Assembly (NCBI GenBank): GCA_028867675.1
Contig: JAGWGA010000007.1
Span: forward strand, 1 to 58,375
Source of the DNA: Nitrososphaerota archaeon
Lineage (GTDB): Archaea; Thermoproteota; Nitrososphaeria; Nitrososphaerales; Nitrosopumilaceae
DNA: 58,375 nucleotides
Direction of reading: 5' to 3'
Shown here: positions 5,766-22,598 of the stretch, one piece after another
Position numbering within the stretch: position 1 is the first letter of the stretch
Layout: every line of letters begins with the position of its first letter
The notes under the pieces: model-generated
Seen by the model: the letters and a program-made list of their open reading frames with translations, nothing else
The model's database searches: none
What the model was told of the DNA's origin: nothing
Made by a program: the position numbers and the translations under genes

Positions 5766-6302
5766 GTGGTGGAAGAAAATGAAAATAATCAAAAGGTATT
5801 ACACTTCATACTGGAAAATCCTGGGTGTCATCTACGACAGATAAAGAGAGATTTGAATATGTCTATGGGAACAGTTCAATATCATTTGAACTCCTTAGAA
5901 AAAATGGGGAGGATAATTTCTGAAAAACATGATTTGTACCGATATTATTTTCCTATTGGATCTTTTGGAGCTTTAGAAAGAAACATACTAAAAATTTTAA
6001 ATCAAGATTCTGAAAGGGAAATACTCTTGTTTATAATAGAAAGAAAAGACCCTACTCAAACTGATATTGTAAATCATATTAAAATTTCCCATGGAACAGC
6101 TAACTGGCACCTTAAGCGACTAATTGAATATGGTATAATACGAGAAGAAAAAGAGGGAAAATTTAAGAAATATCATCTTAATGGCAGTCATGATAACATA
6201 GTCAAACTTTTACAAAATTATCATTCTTCAATATGGAACAAGTGGAGCAACAGGCTGGCTGAATTGTTTCTATCGGTCTCATCTGAAGAGGACAAAGAGT
6301 AA
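5766..6302 (+). CDS. Double winged-helix transcription regulator (copy 1)
   Basis: A 178-residue regulator with two consecutive winged-helix domains. The first holds HLRQIKRDLNMSMGTVQYHL and the second the TANWHLKRLIEYGII recognition region. It ends with the W-x-KWS-x-R motif shared with the copy at 20242-20784. A longer frame opens at 5532, but its first 78 residues have no counterpart in the 180-residue paralogue. Starting at GTG 5766 (or 5769) gives nearly the same length. The stop overlaps the next ATG (TAATG), so a small membrane protein is translated with it. It may act on the operator-like elements at 6632 and 7044; that is inference. Confidence 0.75.
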   Translation: MVEENENNQKVLHFILENPGCHLRQIKRDLNMSMGTVQYHLNSLEKMGRIISEKHDLYRYYFPIGSFGALERNILKILNQDSEREILLFIIERKDPTQTDIVNHIKISHGTANWHLKRLIEYGIIREEKEGKFKKYHLNGSHDNIVKLLQNYHSSIWNKWSNRLAELFLSVSSEEDKE

Positions 6303-6598
6303 TGGTTCAGTTTGTCTTTAGTCATGGGATAGATGAAGTATTTGCCGTAACACAAGTTATGATAGCTGCATTTGCACTTTTCTTGTTAGGGCTTTCTGTT
6401 AAAGCCTATAAAAATACTGGAGCAAGAAAAATAGTATATCTTATTATTGCATTTGGTCTGTTTGCTTTTCAACATCTTCTAAATTATGTAGATCAATCAG
6501 TAGTTGATATTTTGCCTGATGATATTAGATATGTAATATTTGCAATAGTGACACTATCTATCATGGGATTGTTCTTTTTAGCAATATTGAAAAAATGA
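6302..6598 (+). CDS. Three-helix membrane protein coupled to regulator (copy 1)
   Basis: A 98-residue integral membrane protein with three hydrophobic helices (about residues 15-33, 42-60, 72-95) and the polar loop ILPDDIRY before the last one. The same PDD(I/V)R loop and topology occur in the 122-residue protein at 20784-21152, which also overlaps its regulator by one base. Regulator/membrane-protein pairs of this kind resemble haloarchaeal winged-helix plus DUF7521-type pairs. The membrane protein may sense a signal or sequester the regulator, but that is inference. Confidence 0.75.
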   Translation: MVQFVFSHGIDEVFAVTQVMIAAFALFLLGLSVKAYKNTGARKIVYLIIAFGLFAFQHLLNYVDQSVVDILPDDIRYVIFAIVTLSIMGLFFLAILKK

Positions 6599-6631
6599 AA
6601 ATTTAATTTATAAATCCAAGTCAGTAAACTC

Positions 6632-10941: not shown

Positions 10942-13134
10942 ATGAAATTCAAGGCGACAGATCAAATTCTAAGTATTATTGGTAATAAGAAAAATATTCG
11001 AAACTTTGGAGTCATTGCACACGTAGATCACGGCAAGACTACCATGAGTGACAGTTTATTGGCATCAAGTGGAATTATCAGCCCGTCTGTTGCAGGCCAA
11101 GCTTTGGCACTTGATTCAATGAAGCTTGAACAAGACAGACAGATGACCATCGTCCAGGCAAATGTTACTTTACTCTATGAACAAAATGGAGAAGAGTATG
11201 TAATCAACATGATAGATACTCCAGGACACATTGACTTTACTGGTAGAGTCACAAGAAGTTTGAGAGCTATAGACGGTGCAGTTGTGGTATCAGATTCCGT
11301 AGAAGGTATAATGACACAGACTGAAACTGTAACTCGTCAGGCATTAGAAGAAAGGGTAAGACCTGTTTTGTATATCAATAAAATCGATCGTCTAATCAAG
11401 GAACTAAGATTGCCTCCAGAAAAGATGCAAGAGTGGTTGCTTGAAATTATTACAAACTTTAACAGACTAGTTGACATTTACGCAGAACCTGAATACAAGG
11501 AAAAATGGAAGGTAAGCATTCAGGATGGAAGTGTCTCATTTGGTTCTGCAAAGGACAAGTGGGGATTTAATGCAGATGTAATGAAGAAGAAAGGAATTTC
11601 GTTCAAGGATATCTACGAAGCATATTCTGAAGGCGGAGACGTCAAGAAATTGGCAGAAAAAGCTCCATTGTATGACGCAGTACTTGGAATGGTTGTAAAA
11701 CATCACCCATCACCTGATGTTGCACAAAAATATAGAATTCCAAAAATCTGGAAGGGTGATTTAGATTCTGATATTGGTAAAGCACTTTTGAACTGTGATG
11801 ACAACGGCCCAACTGTAATGATGATTGTAAACATGACAGTAGACCCAGCTGCAGGTCCTGTAGCTATTGGAAGATTATTCTCTGGAAGAATAAAAGACGG
11901 CGATAGAATACATTTGATTGATACAAAACGTGAAGGTCGTGTCCAGTCTGTCAACTTTTTCATGGGCAACCAAAGAGAAATGGTGGGACAATTAGCAGCA
12001 GGAAACATCCCAGCTTTGTTAGGTCTAGAACATGCAAGAGCAGGTCAGACATTATCATCAATTCCTGGAATCAATGCATTTGAAGGAATTCAATATGTGT
12101 CAGAGCCTGTCGTACAAATTGCAGTAGAGCCAAAGCATCCAAAAGACTTGCCAAAACTTGTCGAAGCATTGAACCGTATCACTATAGAAGATCCTAACTT
12201 GGTTGTAAAAATAAATGAAGAATCTGGTGAGACCGTAATTGCTGGAATGGGTGTATTGCATTTAGAAATTGCAACTGCATTAATTGCAGATGCCAAAGTC
12301 GATATTGTAACATCACAGCCTTTGATTAATTATAGGGAAACAATTCGTGGCTCTGCAGGACCAATCATGTCAAAATCTCCTAACAGACACAACAAGATCT
12401 TCATGAAAGTAGAACCATTAGATGAAAAGATTGCTGAAATGATCAGAAATGGAACATTAAACGAGTATAAAGACAAGAAGGAAGTTGCTACAATTCTAAA
12501 AGCTGCAGGATGGGACGGCGATGAGGCAAAGCGTGTAATGAGATTTGATGTTAGAGGAAATGTTATGGTGGATGGAACCAAGGGTGTCCAGTTTGTCGGC
12601 GAGTCTACTGATTCTATATTGTCAGGTTTTGAAGATTCTGTTAAAGAAGGTCCACTAGCAAGAGAACAAGTTAGAGGATGCAAGTTTACATTCCACCACT
12701 TTGTACCACACGAGGATCCAGCACACAGAGGTTTGTCCCAATTAGGACCAGCTTCAAGGCGTGCATGTACTGGAGTAATGTTATTGGCACAACCAGTATT
12801 GCTTGAACCAACTCTTGGAATTGAAGTACGTGTACCACAAGAAATGATTGGAAACGTTGCAGGTGTTATTTCTGGTAAACGAGGTAAGGTACTCAATATG
12901 GAACAAAAAGGTGTTATTCATATTATATCAGGAGAACTTCCAGCTTCTGAGACATTTGACTTGTCTGAAGTAATGCGTGGGCAGACTGCAGGACGTGCCA
13001 TGTGGAACACTCATTTCAAAGCATGGACTCCAGTTCCAAACTCTATTCTAACTAAAGTTATTGCTGATATCCGAAAGAGAAAGGGATTAGCACCAGAAGT
13101 GCCAACTCCAGACGAATACGTAGACAGTGAGTAA
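10942..13134 (+). CDS. fusA: Translation elongation factor aEF-2
   Basis: A 730-residue GTPase, the normal length for archaeal EF-2, which translocates tRNA and mRNA on the ribosome. G1 is AHVDHGKTT (residues 26-34), G3 DTPGH and G4 NKID. Domain II and the C-terminal domains IV and V follow. The diphthamide loop near residue 595 reads PAHRGLSQ where most EF-2 proteins have IHRGGGQ; the modified His is kept. TTTTTTTATAA lies about 50 bp upstream, predicting a short leader. The 3' end of this gene is the reported integration site of thaumarchaeal family 1 casposons, and casposon-type genes follow here. Confidence 0.95.
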   Translation: MKFKATDQILSIIGNKKNIRNFGVIAHVDHGKTTMSDSLLASSGIISPSVAGQALALDSMKLEQDRQMTIVQANVTLLYEQNGEEYVINMIDTPGHIDFTGRVTRSLRAIDGAVVVSDSVEGIMTQTETVTRQALEERVRPVLYINKIDRLIKELRLPPEKMQEWLLEIITNFNRLVDIYAEPEYKEKWKVSIQDGSVSFGSAKDKWGFNADVMKKKGISFKDIYEAYSEGGDVKKLAEKAPLYDAVLGMVVKHHPSPDVAQKYRIPKIWKGDLDSDIGKALLNCDDNGPTVMMIVNMTVDPAAGPVAIGRLFSGRIKDGDRIHLIDTKREGRVQSVNFFMGNQREMVGQLAAGNIPALLGLEHARAGQTLSSIPGINAFEGIQYVSEPVVQIAVEPKHPKDLPKLVEALNRITIEDPNLVVKINEESGETVIAGMGVLHLEIATALIADAKVDIVTSQPLINYRETIRGSAGPIMSKSPNRHNKIFMKVEPLDEKIAEMIRNGTLNEYKDKKEVATILKAAGWDGDEAKRVMRFDVRGNVMVDGTKGVQFVGESTDSILSGFEDSVKEGPLAREQVRGCKFTFHHFVPHEDPAHRGLSQLGPASRRACTGVMLLAQPVLLEPTLGIEVRVPQEMIGNVAGVISGKRGKVLNMEQKGVIHIISGELPASETFDLSEVMRGQTAGRAMWNTHFKAWTPVPNSILTKVIADIRKRKGLAPEVPTPDEYVDSE

Positions 13135-13145
13135 AAATGGTTTAC

Positions 13146-13164
13146 CCCCAAATTACGCTTGGGG
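13146..13164 (+). terminator. Hairpin after EF-2
   Basis: CCCCAA and TTGGGG pair around a 7-base loop, 12 bases after the EF-2 stop. It may end or protect the EF-2 mRNA. It also lies where the left end of the casposon would be, so it could instead belong to the element's terminal sequence. Confidence 0.4.
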
Positions 13165-13223
13165 ACATGCTGTTGTCGTAAAGTTCTAAATCAATTTTTA
13201 TAGGTGGCAATGGAAATCAGATC

Positions 13224-13826
13224 ATGCCATTTCGTGGTTACAGTAGCATCATAGGATACCAATATGCTCACTCCGCATTCAGTCTAAGCTATCACTGCGG
13301 ACACTGTAATAGAGACGTTTCAGGTTTGATAACTGCAAAATATGACACAGGTGAAGGCGAAGTAAGATATCTTGTTTGCACAAATTGTGGGGATGGCTCT
13401 GTTGTAACAAAAGAGGGAGTTCTTTATCCACCCTCACTTATTGGACAAAACTTAGAAGGATTACCTCAAGATATTGAAATGGCATATTTGGAAGCTAGAA
13501 GATGTTTTTCCGTAAAGGCATATACAGCATGCGAATTAATATGCAGAAAAATTTTGATGCATGTAGCAGTAGAAAAGAAAGCAAAAGAAGGCGAGTCCTT
13601 TGAAAATTACATTAAACATTTAGAGGCTTTGGGTTATGTTACACCACCAATGAAGCCATGGGTTGATCTGATAAGGACGCATGGTAATATCTCTACTCAT
13701 AAACTGGAAACCGCAGACCCACAACGTGCAGAAAGTACTTTGATGTTTACCACCGAATTGCTAAGAATAATCTATGAAATGGAACATAAGGCAGACAAAT
13801 ACACCAAAAAAACCACGACGCATTAA
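13224..13826 (+). CDS. DUF4145 protein with N-terminal zinc ribbon
   Basis: A 200-residue protein. CGHC and CTNCG (about residues 25-58) form an N-terminal zinc ribbon. The C-terminal half is the helical DUF4145 domain, recognisable by IEMAYLEARRCFSVKAYTAC and a following RTHGN motif. DUF4145 is frequent in restriction, defence and mobile-element proteins, but no enzymatic function is established. The ATG is leaderless, with TTTTTATAGG 26 bp upstream. It is the first gene after EF-2 and may be the first gene of the casposon, or a host gene next to it. Confidence 0.75.
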   Translation: MPFRGYSSIIGYQYAHSAFSLSYHCGHCNRDVSGLITAKYDTGEGEVRYLVCTNCGDGSVVTKEGVLYPPSLIGQNLEGLPQDIEMAYLEARRCFSVKAYTACELICRKILMHVAVEKKAKEGESFENYIKHLEALGYVTPPMKPWVDLIRTHGNISTHKLETADPQRAESTLMFTTELLRIIYEMEHKADKYTKKTTTH

Positions 13827-13832
13827 CAATAG

Positions 13833-14126
13833 TTAGTTTCTTGTATTCCAATCGTTCTTGGAAAGATAACCTTCAGTCCTTCTCCTATTGACTCTCCAAA
13901 GTGCCCTGTCTGCCACTTGCCTTCCATATTCCTCTCGCAGATATGTCATCATGCTCTTTCGAACCCTGCCAAACCTTTCCTTGTCCTTGATTATTGCTTC
14001 TTCACAGTTCAAATCTCCTTGTTGAGACCTCGACGAGTCCTCTTTTGTTGTAGTTTTACCTTCATCTAGTCTTGAATTATCCTGTATTGTCTCTTTTTCA
14101 TCTCTTTTTCTGTTAAAGAACAACAT
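13833..14126 (-). CDS. Small charged protein, unknown
   Basis: About 97 residues from ATG 14126; a GTG at 14168 would give 111. It is highly charged and hydrophilic, with a Ser/Thr/Asp-rich middle and a basic C-terminus (RVNRRRTEGYL). The end resembles a winged-helix or DNA-binding tail but is not diagnostic. It is convergent with the DUF4145 gene, 6 bases apart, and probably lies within the mobile element. I do not recognise a family. Confidence 0.5.
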   Translation of the reverse strand: MLFFNRKRDEKETIQDNSRLDEGKTTTKEDSSRSQQGDLNCEEAIIKDKERFGRVRKSMMTYLREEYGRQVADRALWRVNRRRTEGYLSKNDWNTRN

Positions 14127-14300
14127 TGTAATTCTATACGTAAATCGAGCTAAAAATGTTTCTAACACTAAATCACATATCGTAGTGCAAGCACGGTGTA
14201 AGCATAATTCGTGTGGATTTTGCTAAAAATGGCATCTACAATAGTCCATTAAGATGTAATCGTAAAATGAAACTAGAAAATATCTTAATTATTAAACAGA

Positions 14301-14942
14301 TTAAGCATATCCTTTTGTTCTCTGGTCTCTTTTCAAGTAAAATGTTCTTGATACTTCTACATTGAGCATATCTTGAAGCTCTTCAACCAACCTCAAGTGT
14401 GCCTTGGTTGAAATAAGATTATGCGTCATGAAAAATTCCATGCAAATTTTTACTATTTTTTCTGCAAGCATTGCTTTCCATGCATCATCTTTCTCAATAG
14501 GTTCAGATACACTATACGTTTGACCTGTGGATGATTTGGCGGTATGAACTTTTGTGTAATCTTTAAAGAGAGATTCCAGTGTCTTTTGTAATGTCGGTAT
14601 TCTTTTAGATAGCTCCATAATTTCTTCAATGTTCTTGTATTTTTTTCCTAGATTGACTTCTTCTTTTATTGGTGAATCGTGAAGAACATCTTGGATTTGT
14701 TCTTGATGGGCTACCTCGAAGAAAAGTTCAAGATCTTTCAAACCGTTTGCAACCGTCGTTCTTACATCATACCAAAAATCTGCTGTATCTTCAAAATATT
14801 TACCATGTTTTTGCTTTAAGCCTAACAACTTTCTTCGTTTATCACTTGTAAAAATCCCTCCATCCTCATCGATTAGATCTTTATACTTGGAATGTAGATT
14901 TTTCTGGTCATTTTTTGATAATTCTCGTCGATAATTAGCCAT
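14301..14942 (-). CDS. Helical protein of the casposon region, unknown
   Basis: 213 residues from ATG 14942; starts at 14990 and 15005 would lengthen it. It is predicted all-helical and hydrophilic, with no cysteines forming ribbons and no nucleotide-binding motif. ATG 14942 is preferred because the shared TATA (CCTATAAGG, 14970-14979) would then lie about 30 bp upstream. It diverges from the small basic gene at 14999. A DNA-binding or replication-accessory role would fit the neighbouring polymerase but is not shown by the sequence. Confidence 0.6.
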   Translation of the reverse strand: MANYRRELSKNDQKNLHSKYKDLIDEDGGIFTSDKRRKLLGLKQKHGKYFEDTADFWYDVRTTVANGLKDLELFFEVAHQEQIQDVLHDSPIKEEVNLGKKYKNIEEIMELSKRIPTLQKTLESLFKDYTKVHTAKSSTGQTYSVSEPIEKDDAWKAMLAEKIVKICMEFFMTHNLISTKAHLRLVEELQDMLNVEVSRTFYLKRDQRTKGYA

Positions 14943-14969
14943 ATCTATGTATTGTATAGTCGAAAATAG

Positions 14970-14979
14970 CCTATAAGGT
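14970..14979. promoter_or_regulatory. Near-palindromic TATA shared by divergent genes
   Basis: CCTATAAGG is close to its own reverse complement. It lies about 26 bp from ATG 14999 on the plus strand and about 30 bp from ATG 14942 on the minus strand, so one box may serve both directions. Confidence 0.4.
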
Positions 14980-14998
14980 TTGCTATTCATAGGATCGT

Positions 14999-15376
14999 AT
15001 GTCACGAATACAATCCCTCAGAGATAGACTGCAAGACATTGAGCGTGAACTTGAAGCCTTGAAAGTATTCAGGCTCACACCTCAGTTAAAAAAGTTTCAA
15101 AGAGCCTTGATAGGAGAGCAAAGTTTTATCAAAAATAAAATCTCTGAACTATCTAAAAGTAAAGAAGCAAACGAATTACAAAAAGACGTTCTTCGAAATC
15201 TAGCAAACAAGAACAGATCTCAGAAGATGAAACGCACTTGGAGATATCTTAGAGCAATCAAGGAGAATTATCCTGTTGAACTGTCTACAAAAGAACTTCG
15301 AACTGCATTAAAGAAACACAGACAAGGTCTTGAAACTGACGTTCCAGACGTGGCTTGGAGGAACCCAAGTCCATGA
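14999..15376 (+). CDS. Small basic coiled-coil protein preceding PolB
   Basis: A 125-residue, Lys/Arg-rich, helical protein; residues 1-35 form a likely coiled coil (SLRDRLQDIERELEALKV). The ATG is leaderless, 26 bp from a TATA box. Its stop codon overlaps the PolB start (ATGA at 15373-15376), so the two are translationally coupled. In protein-primed replication systems a terminal protein often precedes the polymerase. Whether this protein has that role is speculation; it does contain several Ser, Thr and Tyr residues. Confidence 0.65.
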   Translation: MSRIQSLRDRLQDIERELEALKVFRLTPQLKKFQRALIGEQSFIKNKISELSKSKEANELQKDVLRNLANKNRSQKMKRTWRYLRAIKENYPVELSTKELRTALKKHRQGLETDVPDVAWRNPSP

Positions 15377-17244
15377 CTTTTTTTCCTATGTCTAATGTTA
15401 AATCATTAGATAATATCAGAGTACGCAAACAAAATAGGAATCCAAACAACTTGTTAATTCTTCCAAGTGTTATAGCAGTAGATACAGAAACTGATGAAGG
15501 AGATATTTTTCTAATTGCAGTGTCAAATGGAAACTATCTAGACCATCCAAACATTAACTTTGAAAACGTTTGCAAGTTTCTGTTAAAATATGAAGGCAAA
15601 CTGATTTTCTTTTACAATTTGGGATATGATGCAGAATGTATTTTAAAATTATTACCTGAGCATATTCTAAGATCATACAAGTGGAAAAGAGATTTAAAAT
15701 TCTCATATCTTGGATACAAAATATTGTATATCGACAGAAAGAAACTTACGGTATCCAAAGGAAATCATTCTGTAAATTGTTATGATATTGCCCAGTACTA
15801 TGACAACAAGACACTCTTAGAGGCACATTCAGAGAACATCAGGAAACCTCTAGATCCGCAATATCTATCCATGAAGGAAAAACGAGATATTTTCACATTA
15901 TTTTACTATTCTAGGCACAAAAATGCAGTTCGAGAGTACTGTATACAAGACTGTATTCTCACAAAGGAACTTGCTGAGAACTGGACAAAGATATTCCATG
16001 ATACATATGGTTTCTATCCTGCCAACTGGATTTCATCAGGGTATCTAGCAGAAAAGGTCTTGATCAATAATGATGTAAACATTCCGCTGTTCAACGAAAT
16101 ACCATACGAAGTTCAAGATATTGCAAGGTCTGCATTTTGTGGCGGTAGATTTGAACTAGTTATGCGTGGATACATCGGATATTGTTGCCTCTATGATATC
16201 AATTCAGCGTATCCATATGCATTGGCTACACTTCCAGACATCACAAATGGCAAGTGGATAAATTCTAAGAAAATAAATCACAAATCTAGACTTGGATTTT
16301 TTCACATACTTGCAGATGTGTCCAATGCTGTCAAGATATGCCCGTTTCCGTTTAGAAAGAAGAATGGAACAATATGTTATCCCTGTGGAAAGTTTCAAAC
16401 TTATGTTACACTAGATGAGTTAAAATCAGTAGAAATGGATTCCAGAATAAAATACACAATTTTAGAATCATACCAGTTTATTCCAAACAAAAACTGTGGA
16501 TATCCATTCAAGGAATTCATTGAAGAGCAGTATTATTCCAGAATGAAACTAAAAAATGAAAAGAATCCACTTGAAAGGGCAATCAAAATTATTCTGAATT
16601 CAATCTATGGAAAGACAGTACAGACCAAACCCCATAACACAATGGGAAATTTGTTCAACCAAGTAATTGGATCTTATATCACAGGATTTGCAAGAGCTGA
16701 ACTTTACAAGTTTATACGAAAATATGATTTGGAAAGTAATGTTGTTGCCTTTGCCACTGATTCTATTGCAGTTAGAAAAAAAATTCCAAATCTACATAGT
16801 GAAAAACTAGGAGAGATGAAGCTAGACAAGGAAGGAAGTGATGTGATATTTCTCTCAAACGGATTTTACAGGTTTAATGGAATATGGAAAAAACGAGGAA
16901 TTGGCTATGATAATGAGAAGAAACAGGAAATTGAGCATGAAGACACGCTAGTGGATAAAGACGGTATGCTCTACATCAAGGTCAAAACCACTAGGAATAC
17001 GCACATCAAAAGTGGTATTTTGTATAACATGCTCAAAAAGGTAGGTAAAATTGAAGTCTATGAGAAGAAGATCAACCTAAATTCTGACAAGAAGAGGTTT
17101 TGGCTTTCTGAATTAAAGTCGTTAAACGATGGAACTTTTTGCGATTCTAGACCAATACCTATTGATCTAGTAGGCAAGTTGATTTCAAAAGAGGAAGTTG
17201 AATTTTATGATGATGAAAAATATGAGCCTGAGAGTGAATTATGA
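15373..17244 (+). CDS. polB: Family B DNA polymerase (casposon type)
   Basis: A 623-residue polymerase. Exonuclease motifs are DTE (residues 37-39), FFYNLGYD and YCIQDC. Polymerase motif A is DINSAYP (about 274), motif B KIILNSIYG (about 405) and motif C FATDS (about 459). Motif C has Ala where most enzymes have the first Asp of DTD. The size and compact form are those of protein-primed PolB of viruses and casposons, not of the replicative cellular PolB. ATG 15373 overlaps the upstream stop (ATGA) and follows GGAGGAA. It presumably copies the mobile element. The 3' end overlaps the convergent OLD gene by 6 bases. Confidence 0.88.
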   Translation: MTFFPMSNVKSLDNIRVRKQNRNPNNLLILPSVIAVDTETDEGDIFLIAVSNGNYLDHPNINFENVCKFLLKYEGKLIFFYNLGYDAECILKLLPEHILRSYKWKRDLKFSYLGYKILYIDRKKLTVSKGNHSVNCYDIAQYYDNKTLLEAHSENIRKPLDPQYLSMKEKRDIFTLFYYSRHKNAVREYCIQDCILTKELAENWTKIFHDTYGFYPANWISSGYLAEKVLINNDVNIPLFNEIPYEVQDIARSAFCGGRFELVMRGYIGYCCLYDINSAYPYALATLPDITNGKWINSKKINHKSRLGFFHILADVSNAVKICPFPFRKKNGTICYPCGKFQTYVTLDELKSVEMDSRIKYTILESYQFIPNKNCGYPFKEFIEEQYYSRMKLKNEKNPLERAIKIILNSIYGKTVQTKPHNTMGNLFNQVIGSYITGFARAELYKFIRKYDLESNVVAFATDSIAVRKKIPNLHSEKLGEMKLDKEGSDVIFLSNGFYRFNGIWKKRGIGYDNEKKQEIEHEDTLVDKDGMLYIKVKTTRNTHIKSGILYNMLKKVGKIEVYEKKINLNSDKKRFWLSELKSLNDGTFCDSRPIPIDLVGKLISKEEVEFYDDEKYEPESEL

Positions 17245-18822
17245 GGTTTCAATTTTATCAATAATAAACTTAAGCTCTTGTGGGACATTTACTGTATCGC
17301 ATTCTTTTATTATATCCATTACACTATCAATGTCATAACTCCCTAAAATATCATTTAGAATTTCTTTACTATTATTACCCGTTAAAGTAACAGAAGTTTT
17401 TTGAGCATTAATTCTTGAAAGTATCGTAGGTTCTTTTTGGAGTATGGCTAACAAATAATCATCTATTGCATGTTTCTTAATGCCAGTAAATTGTTGTGGC
17501 AATCCTGTCACAAAAATATTACTTTTTATTAATTTCCTGTTTCCAGTCTTATTCTCTAATAATATTTTATCATCGTCTTCAGTTTTTTGATATCCTTCAT
17601 TTTCTAATTCTTTAAATCCTTTCAATATTTCATCTCGGATATCTGCTTCCGTTTTACTATCGAAGTCTCTCTGTATGAAAATGGTTTTTTCATCGGTAGA
17701 GATGGTTTTTAGTAATTCTTTTTGCTTCTTAAATCCACCTACTGTAAGTATATTTATTCCAATTTCTTCAGGCCAGTATTTTTTCAACTTATAAAATACA
17801 TGTCGGATAATTGTTTGATCAGTAAGACCTTCAACAATCATAAATTTTTCATATTTGAGTAGATTGCCTATGTCCCAACCTATGTCTCTAATCATGTTTA
17901 CATCTTTAGGGGTTATTTGATTAGAAATTATCCCATACTCCTCATTTTTCTGTAAATGAAAAAATAACGTATCTTGAGATTTTGCAAAAAATTGTAAAAC
18001 ATCTGGAGAATGGGTTGTTACAAAAACTTGATTATTATTCTCAATACAAATTTTTTGTAATCTGCTAATTAGATCTCTTAGTGAGGAGGGGTGTTGATGA
18101 GTTTCAATTTCTTCTATCAATATGATGGAATTTTTACACCCTTTCAATATGGTAAGTAACGATATGCCAGATTTATGCCCCTCACCAAAACTATCGACAT
18201 ATACATCAGTGTCCTTGCTTACCAATGATAACCGTATACCACCTTCGGCATATTCTGACCATTCGAAAGAAGTGGATGTGTCATAGATATCTTCAGGAGT
18301 TAATTTTTTATCAGACACCTCTCTTTCCAATTGTTGCAAATTTGATCTATATGATTGATTGAAGAAAATCATATTCCCAAAACTAGATTTTAGCCCACCT
18401 ACATTTGTCCATAGTTGTTGTATTGTGTTATTTTTCGAACTCGCCAGTTTACCGTCTAATTTTAAATTTCCAGCACCCTCTCCTGAAATTACTAAAGTTA
18501 GATCTATCGTGTTTACATCGAACCCAATGTGGAATCTAAGACTACACTCTCTACCCTCATTAGTTATTTTTATAGTTGGATCAAGTTTGGTATTATAATT
18601 ATGCCATAGCTCTCTCCCAAGTTGAGTTCTTGCAGTACTTCGTAAAACCTGACGAAATTCTAACACTTGATTACTCGCTAATGGTTTATAGACATATATG
18701 GACTCCAGAATTGTGGATTTTCTTGCGTCATTTTTATCAATGAAAATATTAAATCTCTTTAATTCAGTTAATGATAATTTACGTATTCCTCTAAAATTTA
18801 AAATTTCTAGTGATGAGATCAT
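17239..18822 (-). CDS. OLD-family ATPase/TOPRIM nuclease with degenerate P-loop
   Basis: A 527-residue protein. The N-terminal ABC/SMC-like ATPase has ILIEEIETHQHP (Walker B region) and VFVTTHSPDVL (H-loop). The C-terminal TOPRIM part has FMIVEGLTD and IQRDFDS, the acidic metal sites of OLD nucleases. The Walker A position reads DKNDARKST instead of G-x4-GKS/T: both glycines are replaced. ATPase activity may therefore be impaired or altered. ATG 18822 has TTTTTAA about 26 bp upstream. OLD proteins act in phage defence and DNA repair; here it is probably cargo of the element. The gene looks more AT-rich than its neighbours, which fits transfer. Confidence 0.82.
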   Translation of the reverse strand: MISSLEILNFRGIRKLSLTELKRFNIFIDKNDARKSTILESIYVYKPLASNQVLEFRQVLRSTARTQLGRELWHNYNTKLDPTIKITNEGRECSLRFHIGFDVNTIDLTLVISGEGAGNLKLDGKLASSKNNTIQQLWTNVGGLKSSFGNMIFFNQSYRSNLQQLEREVSDKKLTPEDIYDTSTSFEWSEYAEGGIRLSLVSKDTDVYVDSFGEGHKSGISLLTILKGCKNSIILIEEIETHQHPSSLRDLISRLQKICIENNNQVFVTTHSPDVLQFFAKSQDTLFFHLQKNEEYGIISNQITPKDVNMIRDIGWDIGNLLKYEKFMIVEGLTDQTIIRHVFYKLKKYWPEEIGINILTVGGFKKQKELLKTISTDEKTIFIQRDFDSKTEADIRDEILKGFKELENEGYQKTEDDDKILLENKTGNRKLIKSNIFVTGLPQQFTGIKKHAIDDYLLAILQKEPTILSRINAQKTSVTLTGNNSKEILNDILGSYDIDSVMDIIKECDTVNVPQELKFIIDKIETS

Positions 18823-18874
18823 ACTTATCAAACAAATTACTGAGTTAAAAATTTACCATGCTGTTTCATAAATG

Positions 18875-19417
18875 CTAAAAATGATCAACTAAATTTTGGA
18901 CATAGATCTTAACAATCGTAATTTCTTGACACATCGACAATCCCTCACTCCCTTTCATTCCGTGAACAAATCTATGGGGTCTCTCAGATAGAAACTTTCT
19001 CTCCAACACTTCCAAAAACTTTTGAATCAAACTAGAGTCCATTACAACTTTACCTTCCCTAGTCCATGTGTAATTCTTGGAATTGATCAAATTATTGTGA
19101 TTGTTTGCAAACTTGTAAACAGAATATTCCACCAACCATCTGAAAGGCTCAATGATATCATACACTAATGCCTGAAATCCAGAGTGTGTTTTATGATAGA
19201 ATCCATAGTAAGCATCAAGTCCTAAACCATTTACAAACTTGCAAATCTCACCAGCAAGAACAGTATAACCATAATTCAGTAAAGCATTGATGATATCAGA
19301 GGCATAGCGATTTGAGATGCGACCACCTCCGCCACGCCTTGAATCAAACTTGTATTTCGGATCAAACAGTTTGGCATAGTTATGATGTAAACAAAAAATA
19401 AATTCTAAATTATTCAA
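18875..19417 (-). pseudogene. cas1: Truncated Cas1 (casposase remnant)
   Basis: An open frame of 180 codons matching the C-terminal catalytic domain of Cas1. It contains NALLNYGYTVLAGEI, LDAYYGFYHKTHSG (catalytic His) and LVYDIIEPFRWLVE (acidic metal ligands), and a C-terminal basic helix. The N-terminal beta-sheet domain and the EG-x-A helix with the first catalytic Glu should precede YAKLFDPKY but are absent. A TGA lies just upstream in frame, and no other frame continues the protein. About 150 residues are missing, so it is probably inactive. No cas2 or CRISPR array is present, which points to a casposon origin rather than adaptive immunity. Confidence 0.8.
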
Positions 19418-19431
19418 ACATCAGAAAAATA

Positions 19432-19614
19432 TTATCCAGATGCACCAGAACAAATATCAGAAAGCAGATGCGAATTGTACTGCCCCAGATACGAAGTACC
19501 GCTATCTCGAGGAATAGTTTTACAAATCACATCTGGCATGATAAAATCTGCCATTAGATACACTGCAATTAAGAGGCTCACTATTATGATAATCAGCCCA
19601 TACATTGCTTTCAT
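19432..19614 (-). CDS. Small secreted or membrane-anchored protein
   Basis: A 60-residue protein with one strongly hydrophobic N-terminal segment (residues 5-25) and a short polar tail containing two cysteines. It ends 15 bases before the truncated cas1 frame opens, which places the break of the mobile element at or near 19.42 kb. It is probably a host gene. Function unknown. Confidence 0.5.
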   Translation of the reverse strand: MKAMYGLIIIIVSLLIAVYLMADFIMPDVICKTIPRDSGTSYLGQYNSHLLSDICSGASG

Positions 19615-19720
19615 AAAATAGTCTATCTGGTGTAGTCATATAATCTGTCATTTTGTTTTACTTTCAATGCCAATCAGATGATATGATAAAAAAATAATAA
19701 AAAATTATTATTATATAAAA

Positions 19721-20241: not shown

Positions 20242-20784
20242 ATGCCTCATATCTCTGAAATTACTGAAAACTCTGACAAGATACTACAATATGTCGTTGA
20301 TAATCCAGGGGCTCACCTAAGGCAAATACAGCGTGCTCTTGACATCCCTCTTGGAACTCTAAGGCATCATTTGGAAGCACTTGAAAAAAATGAAAAGATA
20401 ACTTCAGAGAAAAATATCTTGTTTAGATACTATTTTGCAACTGGATTTTTAATCCAAAATGATAGAAACGCACTAAAAATATTGCACAACGAAACTGCAA
20501 GAGAGATTCTCTTACATCTATTGGAAAAAAAGACCGTACATCAAAACGAACTGGTTGGAAACATTGGCATTACCGCACCTTCAGTTAATTGGCACATGCA
20601 GAGACTGTCTTCTCTTGGTATTGCATCAATCTCAAAAAGTGGCAAGCATGTTGTCTATGAACTTACAGCCGACCCATCCAATATTGTAAAATTATTAAAA
20701 AATTATTATCCAAAAATATGGGATAAATGGAGTGATAGGGTATCTGATATGTTCCTAAACTTCTCCGAGGAGCCTGAAGAGTAA
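20242..20784 (+). CDS. Double winged-helix transcription regulator (copy 2)
   Basis: A 180-residue paralogue of the regulator at 5766-6302. The first winged helix contains HLRQIQRALDIPLGTLRHHL and the second SVNWHMQRLSSLGI. The shared C-terminus is IVKLLKNYYPKIWDKWSDR. Both copies have two DNA-binding domains and no obvious ligand domain, so the signal may come through the coupled membrane protein. The last codons overlap the next ATG (TAATG), and GAGGAG lies a few bases upstream as ribosome-binding site. Confidence 0.8.
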   Translation: MPHISEITENSDKILQYVVDNPGAHLRQIQRALDIPLGTLRHHLEALEKNEKITSEKNILFRYYFATGFLIQNDRNALKILHNETAREILLHLLEKKTVHQNELVGNIGITAPSVNWHMQRLSSLGIASISKSGKHVVYELTADPSNIVKLLKNYYPKIWDKWSDRVSDMFLNFSEEPEE

Positions 20785-21152
20785 TGACTGCACCGCCATT
20801 TCTCTTTGGACCTGGAAGTGGAGAGTTGTTTATGTTTGCTCAAGTGGCAATTATTACAGTCTCATTGTTGTTGATGGGAATAACAATTTCTGCCTATTCT
20901 AAAACACGAATTAAGCGATTAAAGTATATCATTGCAGCCTTTGCGTTATTTGCATCTCATGCGGTGATAAATCTCGTAGATGGAATATTTACAGATATTA
21001 TGCCTGATGATGTTCGATTTACAGCTGTATCTCTTATTATACTGAGTATTGTGATTTTGTTATTTATCGGATTTGTTAAAAAGGACAAGCCTGAGAAACA
21101 AAAAATCAAGATTGAAAAAACATCTTTTGACAATCTAGAAGATCTGAAATAA
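20784..21152 (+). CDS. Three-helix membrane protein coupled to regulator (copy 2)
   Basis: A 122-residue membrane protein with helices near residues 13-33, 43-61 and 72-95 and a Lys-rich cytoplasmic tail of about 25 residues that copy 1 lacks. The loop IMPDDVRF matches ILPDDIRY of copy 1. It overlaps the regulator stop by one base, so the two are made together. Its role is unknown; a membrane sensor or anchor for the regulator is the simplest idea. Confidence 0.75.
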   Translation: MTAPPFLFGPGSGELFMFAQVAIITVSLLLMGITISAYSKTRIKRLKYIIAAFALFASHAVINLVDGIFTDIMPDDVRFTAVSLIILSIVILLFIGFVKKDKPEKQKIKIEKTSFDNLEDLK

Positions 21153-21727: not shown

Positions 21728-21941
21728 ATTTAGAATGTAAAAAATACAATTCTGGATAAATTATAAAAAGACCAAAGTATCACAAACAGTCAAAGGATTG
21801 CCATTACTAACATCATTCCATTTGGAGTCCTATTGGTCTAAAGAATGATTTTTCTTATACCATAAATGGTTTGCTGCAAATTATATCATATAATTTTCTA
21901 ATAGAAATTACTAAATCACCCATGTAATCAAAGATTGTGAA

Positions 21942-22136
21942 TTGAAACTCAAATCATACACTGCTGTTATAATAATTCTGTTAGGCCTGTCAGGTGCATC
22001 ATTTGTAGCAATGTATGTTTTACAATCTCCATTCTTGGAGCATATTGGAATTGCTCTTTTGATATTCATAGTTATTGTAGCAATAACCTGGGCATTGCGA
22101 AAGCTAAACAAGCCTGATGCAAAGCCTGAAGATTAA
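21942..22136 (+). CDS. Small two-helix membrane protein (copy 1)
   Basis: 64 residues from a TTG start, with two hydrophobic helices (residues 7-26 and 32-51) and a charged tail. The pattern MKL...LGLS..SFVAM....QS and a final KL basic end recur in the 65-residue protein at 22401-22598, so the two are probably paralogues. Function unknown. Confidence 0.55.
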   Translation: MKLKSYTAVIIILLGLSGASFVAMYVLQSPFLEHIGIALLIFIVIVAITWALRKLNKPDAKPED

Positions 22137-22225
22137 TTCCAAGTCATCTGTCTATACCTGTAATTGAGTTTTTACAATGGTAAAACAGGAGTATATTATC
22201 CAGTCTGAAAGTATACTGATCAACA

Positions 22226-22396
22226 ATGAATATTGTCATGCATGAATCTGTTGATATGAGCGCCCAATTTTGTGAGTCATATGAAAAAATAAGAAAATCA
22301 ATGAAGGCAAGTCCGGAAAATTACCTAAATGAACTTGCATCAATTTCTAAATGTATGAAAAGACTGGAAGATTTTATCGATACTCTGGAAGTATAA
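22226..22396 (+). CDS. Small helical protein, 56 residues
   Basis: The frame from ATG 22226 encodes a hydrophilic, probably all-helical protein with two cysteines. A TATA-like TATATTAT lies about 30 bp upstream. Its stop is 4 bases before the ATG of the membrane protein at 22401, suggesting a two-gene transcript. Unknown function. Confidence 0.5.
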   Translation: MNIVMHESVDMSAQFCESYEKIRKSMKASPENYLNELASISKCMKRLEDFIDTLEV

Positions 22397-22400
22397 TAAA

Positions 22401-22598
22401 ATGAAACTAAATCCATTACAGATTGTATCACTTACAATGTTTGGCCTCTCAGTAGTGTCGTTTCTTGCAATGAAAAGTTATCAATCGCATCTAGCGGGAT
22501 GGGCAGCTGTAGTCTTTGGGTTTGCAGCCATTATTGCCATGATTGTGTCCGGTCTAAAAAAACTAAAGGCTGGAAAAATTGCAAAACCTGGCGTTTGA
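22401..22598 (+). CDS. Small two-helix membrane protein (copy 2)
   Basis: A 65-residue protein with two hydrophobic helices and a Lys-rich C-terminus. It resembles the protein at 21942-22136 in length, topology and the start motif MKL followed by LSVVSFLAM. It is separated from the preceding 56-residue frame by 4 bases. Function unknown. Confidence 0.6.
   Translation: MKLNPLQIVSLTMFGLSVVSFLAMKSYQSHLAGWAAVVFGFAAIIAMIVSGLKKLKAGKIAKPGV

Follow-up and report, generated by a model that had tools for sequence, protein, structure and literature searches.

Casposons have been proposed as the source of the CRISPR adaptation machinery, and one scenario for the origin of CRISPR involves an immobilized casposon whose polymerase was lost (PMC6452270). 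Published family 1 casposons have ef-2 as their target. Upstream of their polymerase gene lie 3–4 genes, one of which has been proposed to encode a terminal protein (PMC4046053, PMC6563490).

The window analysed here, a stretch of 58,375 nt, corresponds to contig C202 in the 1.74-Mb assembly (224 contigs, 97% complete) of a Nitrosotalea-like, ammonia-oxidizing archaeon. A first-pass annotation had proposed a family 1 casposon remnant behind aEF-2, and the analysis bore this out: a terminal inverted repeat (TIR), a target copy and the gene core were found, and PolB and Cas1 were each 88% identical to those of the EF-2 casposon of Ca. Nitrosotalea devanaterra (G002). The 13.1–19.4 kb block is very probably a defective family 1 casposon remnant, its second flank not being proven host DNA. 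This reading rests on the TIR and target copy at the EF-2 stop, the identity levels of PolB, Cas1 and g4, the synteny of the core at other sites, the empty EF-2 sites of other genera and the lack of cas2 and a CRISPR array. Pairwise identity supports the putative assignment of Cas1 and PolB to family 1, and the closest relatives of the element showed the family 1 features tested. We class it as the defective remnant of a family 1 casposon, not as a complete member; it is a new broken copy of an already known family.

Target site, element end and gene core

The defective element spans 13133–19381; its insertion point lies inside the aEF-2 stop codon and thus at the 3' end of its target gene. 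The aEF-2 protein was 97.6% identical to EF-2 of N. devanaterra over the 627 residues compared. The left target copy of 13 bp consists of the last four EF-2 codons and the T of the stop codon; its N. devanaterra counterpart (GTCGACAGCGAGT) is present at both ends of that element. The left TIR scored 43.1 bits (E 1.3e-11) with TIR models trained only on casposon ends other than EF-2 left ends, the window end being outside the training set. The target copy and TIR, at 13120–13194, are new in the window and had been missed in the first-pass annotation. Features are listed in the table below.

Table. Coordinates of the element, its target and related features (window positions unless a locus is named)
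Feature	Position	Strand	Remarks
aEF-2, insertion target	10942..13134	+	730-aa ORF, intact
Left target copy (TSD), GTAGACAGTGAGT	13120..13132	+	aligned with duplicated copies of N. devanaterra and other elements
Left TIR, type A (AAAAATGGTTTACCCCC...GTTGTCGTAAAG)	13133..13194	+	
g1, DUF4145 protein, PD-T7-4-like, element-specific cargo	13224..13826	+	Pfam 2.2e-13, PADLOC 4.5e-9
g2, small conserved casposon gene	13833..14168	-	homologs beside PolB in G005, G028, G031, G036
g3, conserved casposon gene	14301..15005	-	homologs upstream of PolB in G005, G031
g4, conserved casposon gene, candidate terminal protein	14999..15376	+	13 homologs upstream of PolB
PolB, protein-primed-type family B DNA polymerase	15373..17244	+	623 aa; ORF opens 15355, ATG 15373
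OLD-family ATPase-TOPRIM, element-specific cargo	17239..18831	-	Pfam AAA_15 3.8e-19, PADLOC AriAB/GajA
cas1, C-terminal half only, casposase remnant	18878..19381	-	codon 182 onward
Block with 60-aa gene g8	19432..19667	-	71–72% identical to G001, G003, G020 downstream of EF-2
Short EF-2 elements, loci	L104 17791-19699 (G008); L109 (G020); L101 (G001); L117 (G032)		
guaA / MTHFS casposon ends	L060 14684; L058 80; L065 10882; L061 8474; L056 17218		
EF-2-like bases before TIR	L236 near 2083-2110 (G006:C16); L237 near 2256-2283 (G007:C53); L003 1552-1571		

Complete relatives extend from AAAAATGG... to an inverted copy and are flanked by the 13 bp. This end structure was seen at EF-2 in N. devanaterra (6.4 kb) and G028 (5.6 kb), and also at non-EF-2 sites, namely the 3' end of the gene for 5-formyltetrahydrofolate cyclo-ligase (MTHFS) beside purD in G004 and an intergenic position in the host genome itself (G000:C147:1572-10417). 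The first-pass annotation had suggested a search of both sides for TIRs and a target duplication. The left TIR and left copy were found; a right TIR and a second target copy were absent from the window by pattern search, repeat finder, self-alignment and TIR models. With the right TIR and target copy deleted, a two-ended element cannot be demonstrated from the window copy. We also considered whether the left TIR could be native sequence downstream of EF-2. Empty EF-2 sites in other genera ruled this out, as did the presence of the same TIR at both ends of the guaA, MTHFS and G000:C147 elements. Such clearly empty sites turned up in other genera only.

The genes 3' of aEF-2 are arranged in the order g1, g2 (-), g3 (-), g4, PolB, OLD (-) and Cas1 fragment (-). 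The small genes at 13224–15376 had been read as possible undescribed cargo with a replication partner coupled to PolB. Their existence was confirmed, together with the overlap of the g4 stop and the PolB start (ATGA, 15373–15376); g2–g4 turned out to be known family 1 core genes and not undescribed cargo. Lying directly upstream of polB, they are syntenic in related elements: the order of g4 and PolB, with g2 and/or g3, is kept in those of G005, G028, G031 and G036, some of which occupy other sites, guaA among them. The g4 protein was 66–70% identical to its counterpart in the N. devanaterra EF-2 casposon. It is probably the terminal protein, as suggested by the overlap with PolB, by a C-terminus (NPSP) that is near-invariant among homologs and by a position already proposed for this role in the literature. 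An AlphaFold model of g4 consisted of long helices (pLDDT 88, pTM 0.48), and Foldseek returned no informative structural match to it, so the role remains inferred.

PolB contains the exo and pol motifs, the 130-residue spacing of motifs A and B is that of protein-primed enzymes, and the protein matched a PHROG DNA polymerase profile (3.4e-57); a sequence search of the PDB gave no match. The motifs, their spacing, the PHROG match and the identity to the N. devanaterra enzyme point to a polymerase of the protein-primed type. The analysis likewise upheld the earlier calls of a compact PolB of this type, an OLD protein and a solitary Cas1 lacking cas2 and an array. As related polymerases occur in archaeal viruses (PMC4046053) and PolB has a PHROG polymerase match, the block might be taken for a provirus or a virus-derived island with a protein-primed polymerase. 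It contains no capsid, packaging or tyrosine-integrase gene, it does contain Cas1 and a casposon TIR, and the closest polymerases found sit in casposons; we regard a viral origin as scarcely credible.

The cargo raises another alternative. Both g1 and OLD resemble defence proteins (PD-T7-4 and GajA/AriA-like, respectively) and are likely defence cargo. The usual Walker A motif is GxNxxGKST; that of OLD is the unusual DKNDARKST, and its ATPase may be impaired. In the genus, g1 had one weak match (25% identity), and OLD had no match in 36 other genomes. With such genes, and with low dN/dS against relatives (0.07–0.09 for PolB, 0.07–0.1 for PolB and Cas1C together), the block could be viewed not as the remnant of a mobile element but as a stable part of the chromosome, a defence island in which a Cas1 fragment has been domesticated. 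Against this, g1 and OLD are practically confined to the host genome, a TIR and target copy lie at the EF-2 stop, the PolB core is found between TIRs at different sites, and low dN/dS is also what is expected if the truncation is recent. Nor was the same block found as a fixed chromosomal cluster at unrelated loci, an outcome that would have spoken against a casposon. A defence island is thus highly improbable, and a casposon remnant remains the preferred reading.

The break in cas1 and the adjoining block

The element had been described as broken at the cas1 end, and this proved correct. The cas1 fragment lies in an ORF at 18875–19417 and matched Pfam Cas_Cas1 (7.9e-24) at profile positions 167–282 of 283; homology to Cas1 of N. 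devanaterra ends at 19381, which corresponds to codon 182 of that full-length protein. The integrase (casposase) is incomplete: the N-domain and E173 are lost. E173 is invariant in 6/6 full-length copies, and we take it to be the first catalytic residue (Glu). The closest PDB entry to the Cas1 profile was 6opm, presumably a casposase structure. As for a CRISPR-Cas adaptation module, cas2 (PF09827) had no match in the whole genome, and neither a CRISPR-like array nor spaced direct repeats were found in the window.

Since the assembly has 224 contigs and misjoins arise easily in tandem repeats, casposon arrays included, the truncation at 19381 might be an assembly artefact of a complete element. 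Yet the contig runs on into sequence that is also found downstream of EF-2 in relatives, and the missing N-terminal half of cas1 is on no other contig of the assembly. We consider misassembly unlikely.

Truncated cas1 copies were observed at other loci as well (L167–L211 and the EF-2 loci of the genus), and 26 of these 39 copies keep no more than the first 80 of ~355 codons. Breakpoints near the N-terminus were not accepted as a special signal: the pattern is in part a bias of the search, whose motif selects for N-terminal pieces, and erosion acting repeatedly would leave the same picture.

Beyond the break lies the g8 block. In G001 casposon TIRs and a target copy delimit it, and in G026 and G004 homologous sequence starts at a casposon end. 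We read the g8 block as the probable end of a second casposon belonging to this array. Since 19432–19667 has matches in the terminal blocks of other remnants at EF-2, two or more elements were probably present at the site. The alternative is a single element followed by host DNA: several genomes have the block 3' of EF-2, and no further TIR was found within the window. The casposon ends around or beside it in G001, G026 and G004, and the adjacent target copy in G001, make this rather doubtful. The use of g8 as a marker of the host flank was also doubted, given its position between casposon ends in G001 and its absence from many relatives. Two further observations concern the surroundings. Paralogous gene pairs, each comprising an HTH regulator and a small membrane protein (45% and 39% identical), flank the EF-2 region on either side (5766–6601 and 20242–21152), and a short block 3' of the element (21769–22588) runs opposite to its counterpart downstream of EF-2 in the relatives G001, G003, G008, G011 and G020.

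With a casposon array as the preferred reading, the history of the locus may be pictured as follows, integration and replication being modelled on the literature. Cas1 would have acted as the integrase of an ancestral element, linking the TIR ends to a staggered 13-bp target between T and AA of the aEF-2 stop. EF-2 comes to no harm, as the TIR begins with AAAAA and thereby re-creates the TAA stop. Copying of the element would have relied on its protein-primed PolB, for which g4 probably served as terminal protein. A later deletion, in the order of events that we infer, would have taken out the right TIR and its target copy along with the N-terminal half of cas1, joining cas1 codon 182 to the probable end of another casposon in the array. 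The window copy is no longer self-mobile.

The EF-2 site across genomes

Independent TIR models fired exactly at the EF-2 stop in 29 of the 31 genomes of the genus, and the remaining two (G004, G024) had similar TIR variants there by eye. Every genus genome that could be checked has a casposon end or a close variant at this position. Outside the genus, 12 of 24 genomes gave a hit of the models at the EF-2 stop. Among 469 control gene ends the models fired at 8, and 7 of these are casposon ends themselves.

Several EF-2 sites hold short elements. Those of G008 (1.9 kb), G001 (1.6 kb) and G020 (2.7 kb) are TIR-flanked with an adjoining target copy and have neither PolB nor a full cas1; G032 has a 0.7-kb element with a damaged outer end. 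The TIR-flanked ones are possibly non-autonomous casposons, of which no description was found in the literature searched. Mobility of the G008 mini-element was considered and set aside: only a part of ~400 bp matches elsewhere, probably as a dispersed gene family, and this is no proof of transposition.

Family 1 casposon ends were also observed at the stop codons of guaA (GMP synthase) and of MTHFS, the neighbour of purD, with insertion once more between T and AA. In the literature searched, guaA is not named as a casposon target. TIRs at non-EF-2 intergenic sites were preceded by 19–28 bases whose resemblance to the EF-2 3' end goes beyond the 13-bp copy.

Tentatively, the aEF-2 stop could be a permanently occupied casposon site in Nitrosotalea with tandem-array turnover. 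Short non-autonomous elements (no polB, at most a cas1 stub) might then be moved in trans by full elements elsewhere, and the EF-2-proximal TIR might now be the gene's stop codon and 3' flank. We offer this scenario as possible rather than probable. The site-wide EF-2 pattern is of more interest than the single element. The locus shows the ageing of casposons at a fixed site, with an array, deletion of the integrase and retention of cargo and a TIR. Genus-wide occupancy and the short derivatives provide natural replicates at one target with exact ends, which can be used to study end recognition by casposases, orientation and movement in trans.

Comparison with known casposons

The EF-2 casposon of N. 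devanaterra (family 1; PMC6563490) shares with the window element the target gene, the insertion in the stop codon, the TIR type and g4 upstream of PolB. It differs in cargo and in orientation to EF-2: cas1 adjoins EF-2 in N. devanaterra, G026, G028 and the cas1-stub sites, and the window element is reversed. In contrast to the window element, it has both TIRs (1–48 and 6373–6420), both target copies and a full-length cas1. According to their published description, NitAR1-C1 and other Nitrosopumilus family 1 casposons (PMC4046053) also combine a protein-primed PolB, a compact Cas1, conserved small genes and an ef-2 target; compared with these, the window element keeps only half of cas1 and one end.

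A further relative resides in the same genome. The casposon at G000:C147:1572-10417 (L003) appears intact, with near-identical TIRs, target copies (ATCGACAGCAAGT) and full-length cas1 and PolB, and the TIR of a second element follows directly from 10431 onward. It resembles the window element in its family 1 layout, TIRs and 13-bp target copies, with 49% identity in PolB and 60% in Cas1C. Unlike the window element, it is complete, has a type B TIR and an intergenic target, and stands in tandem with a second TIR.
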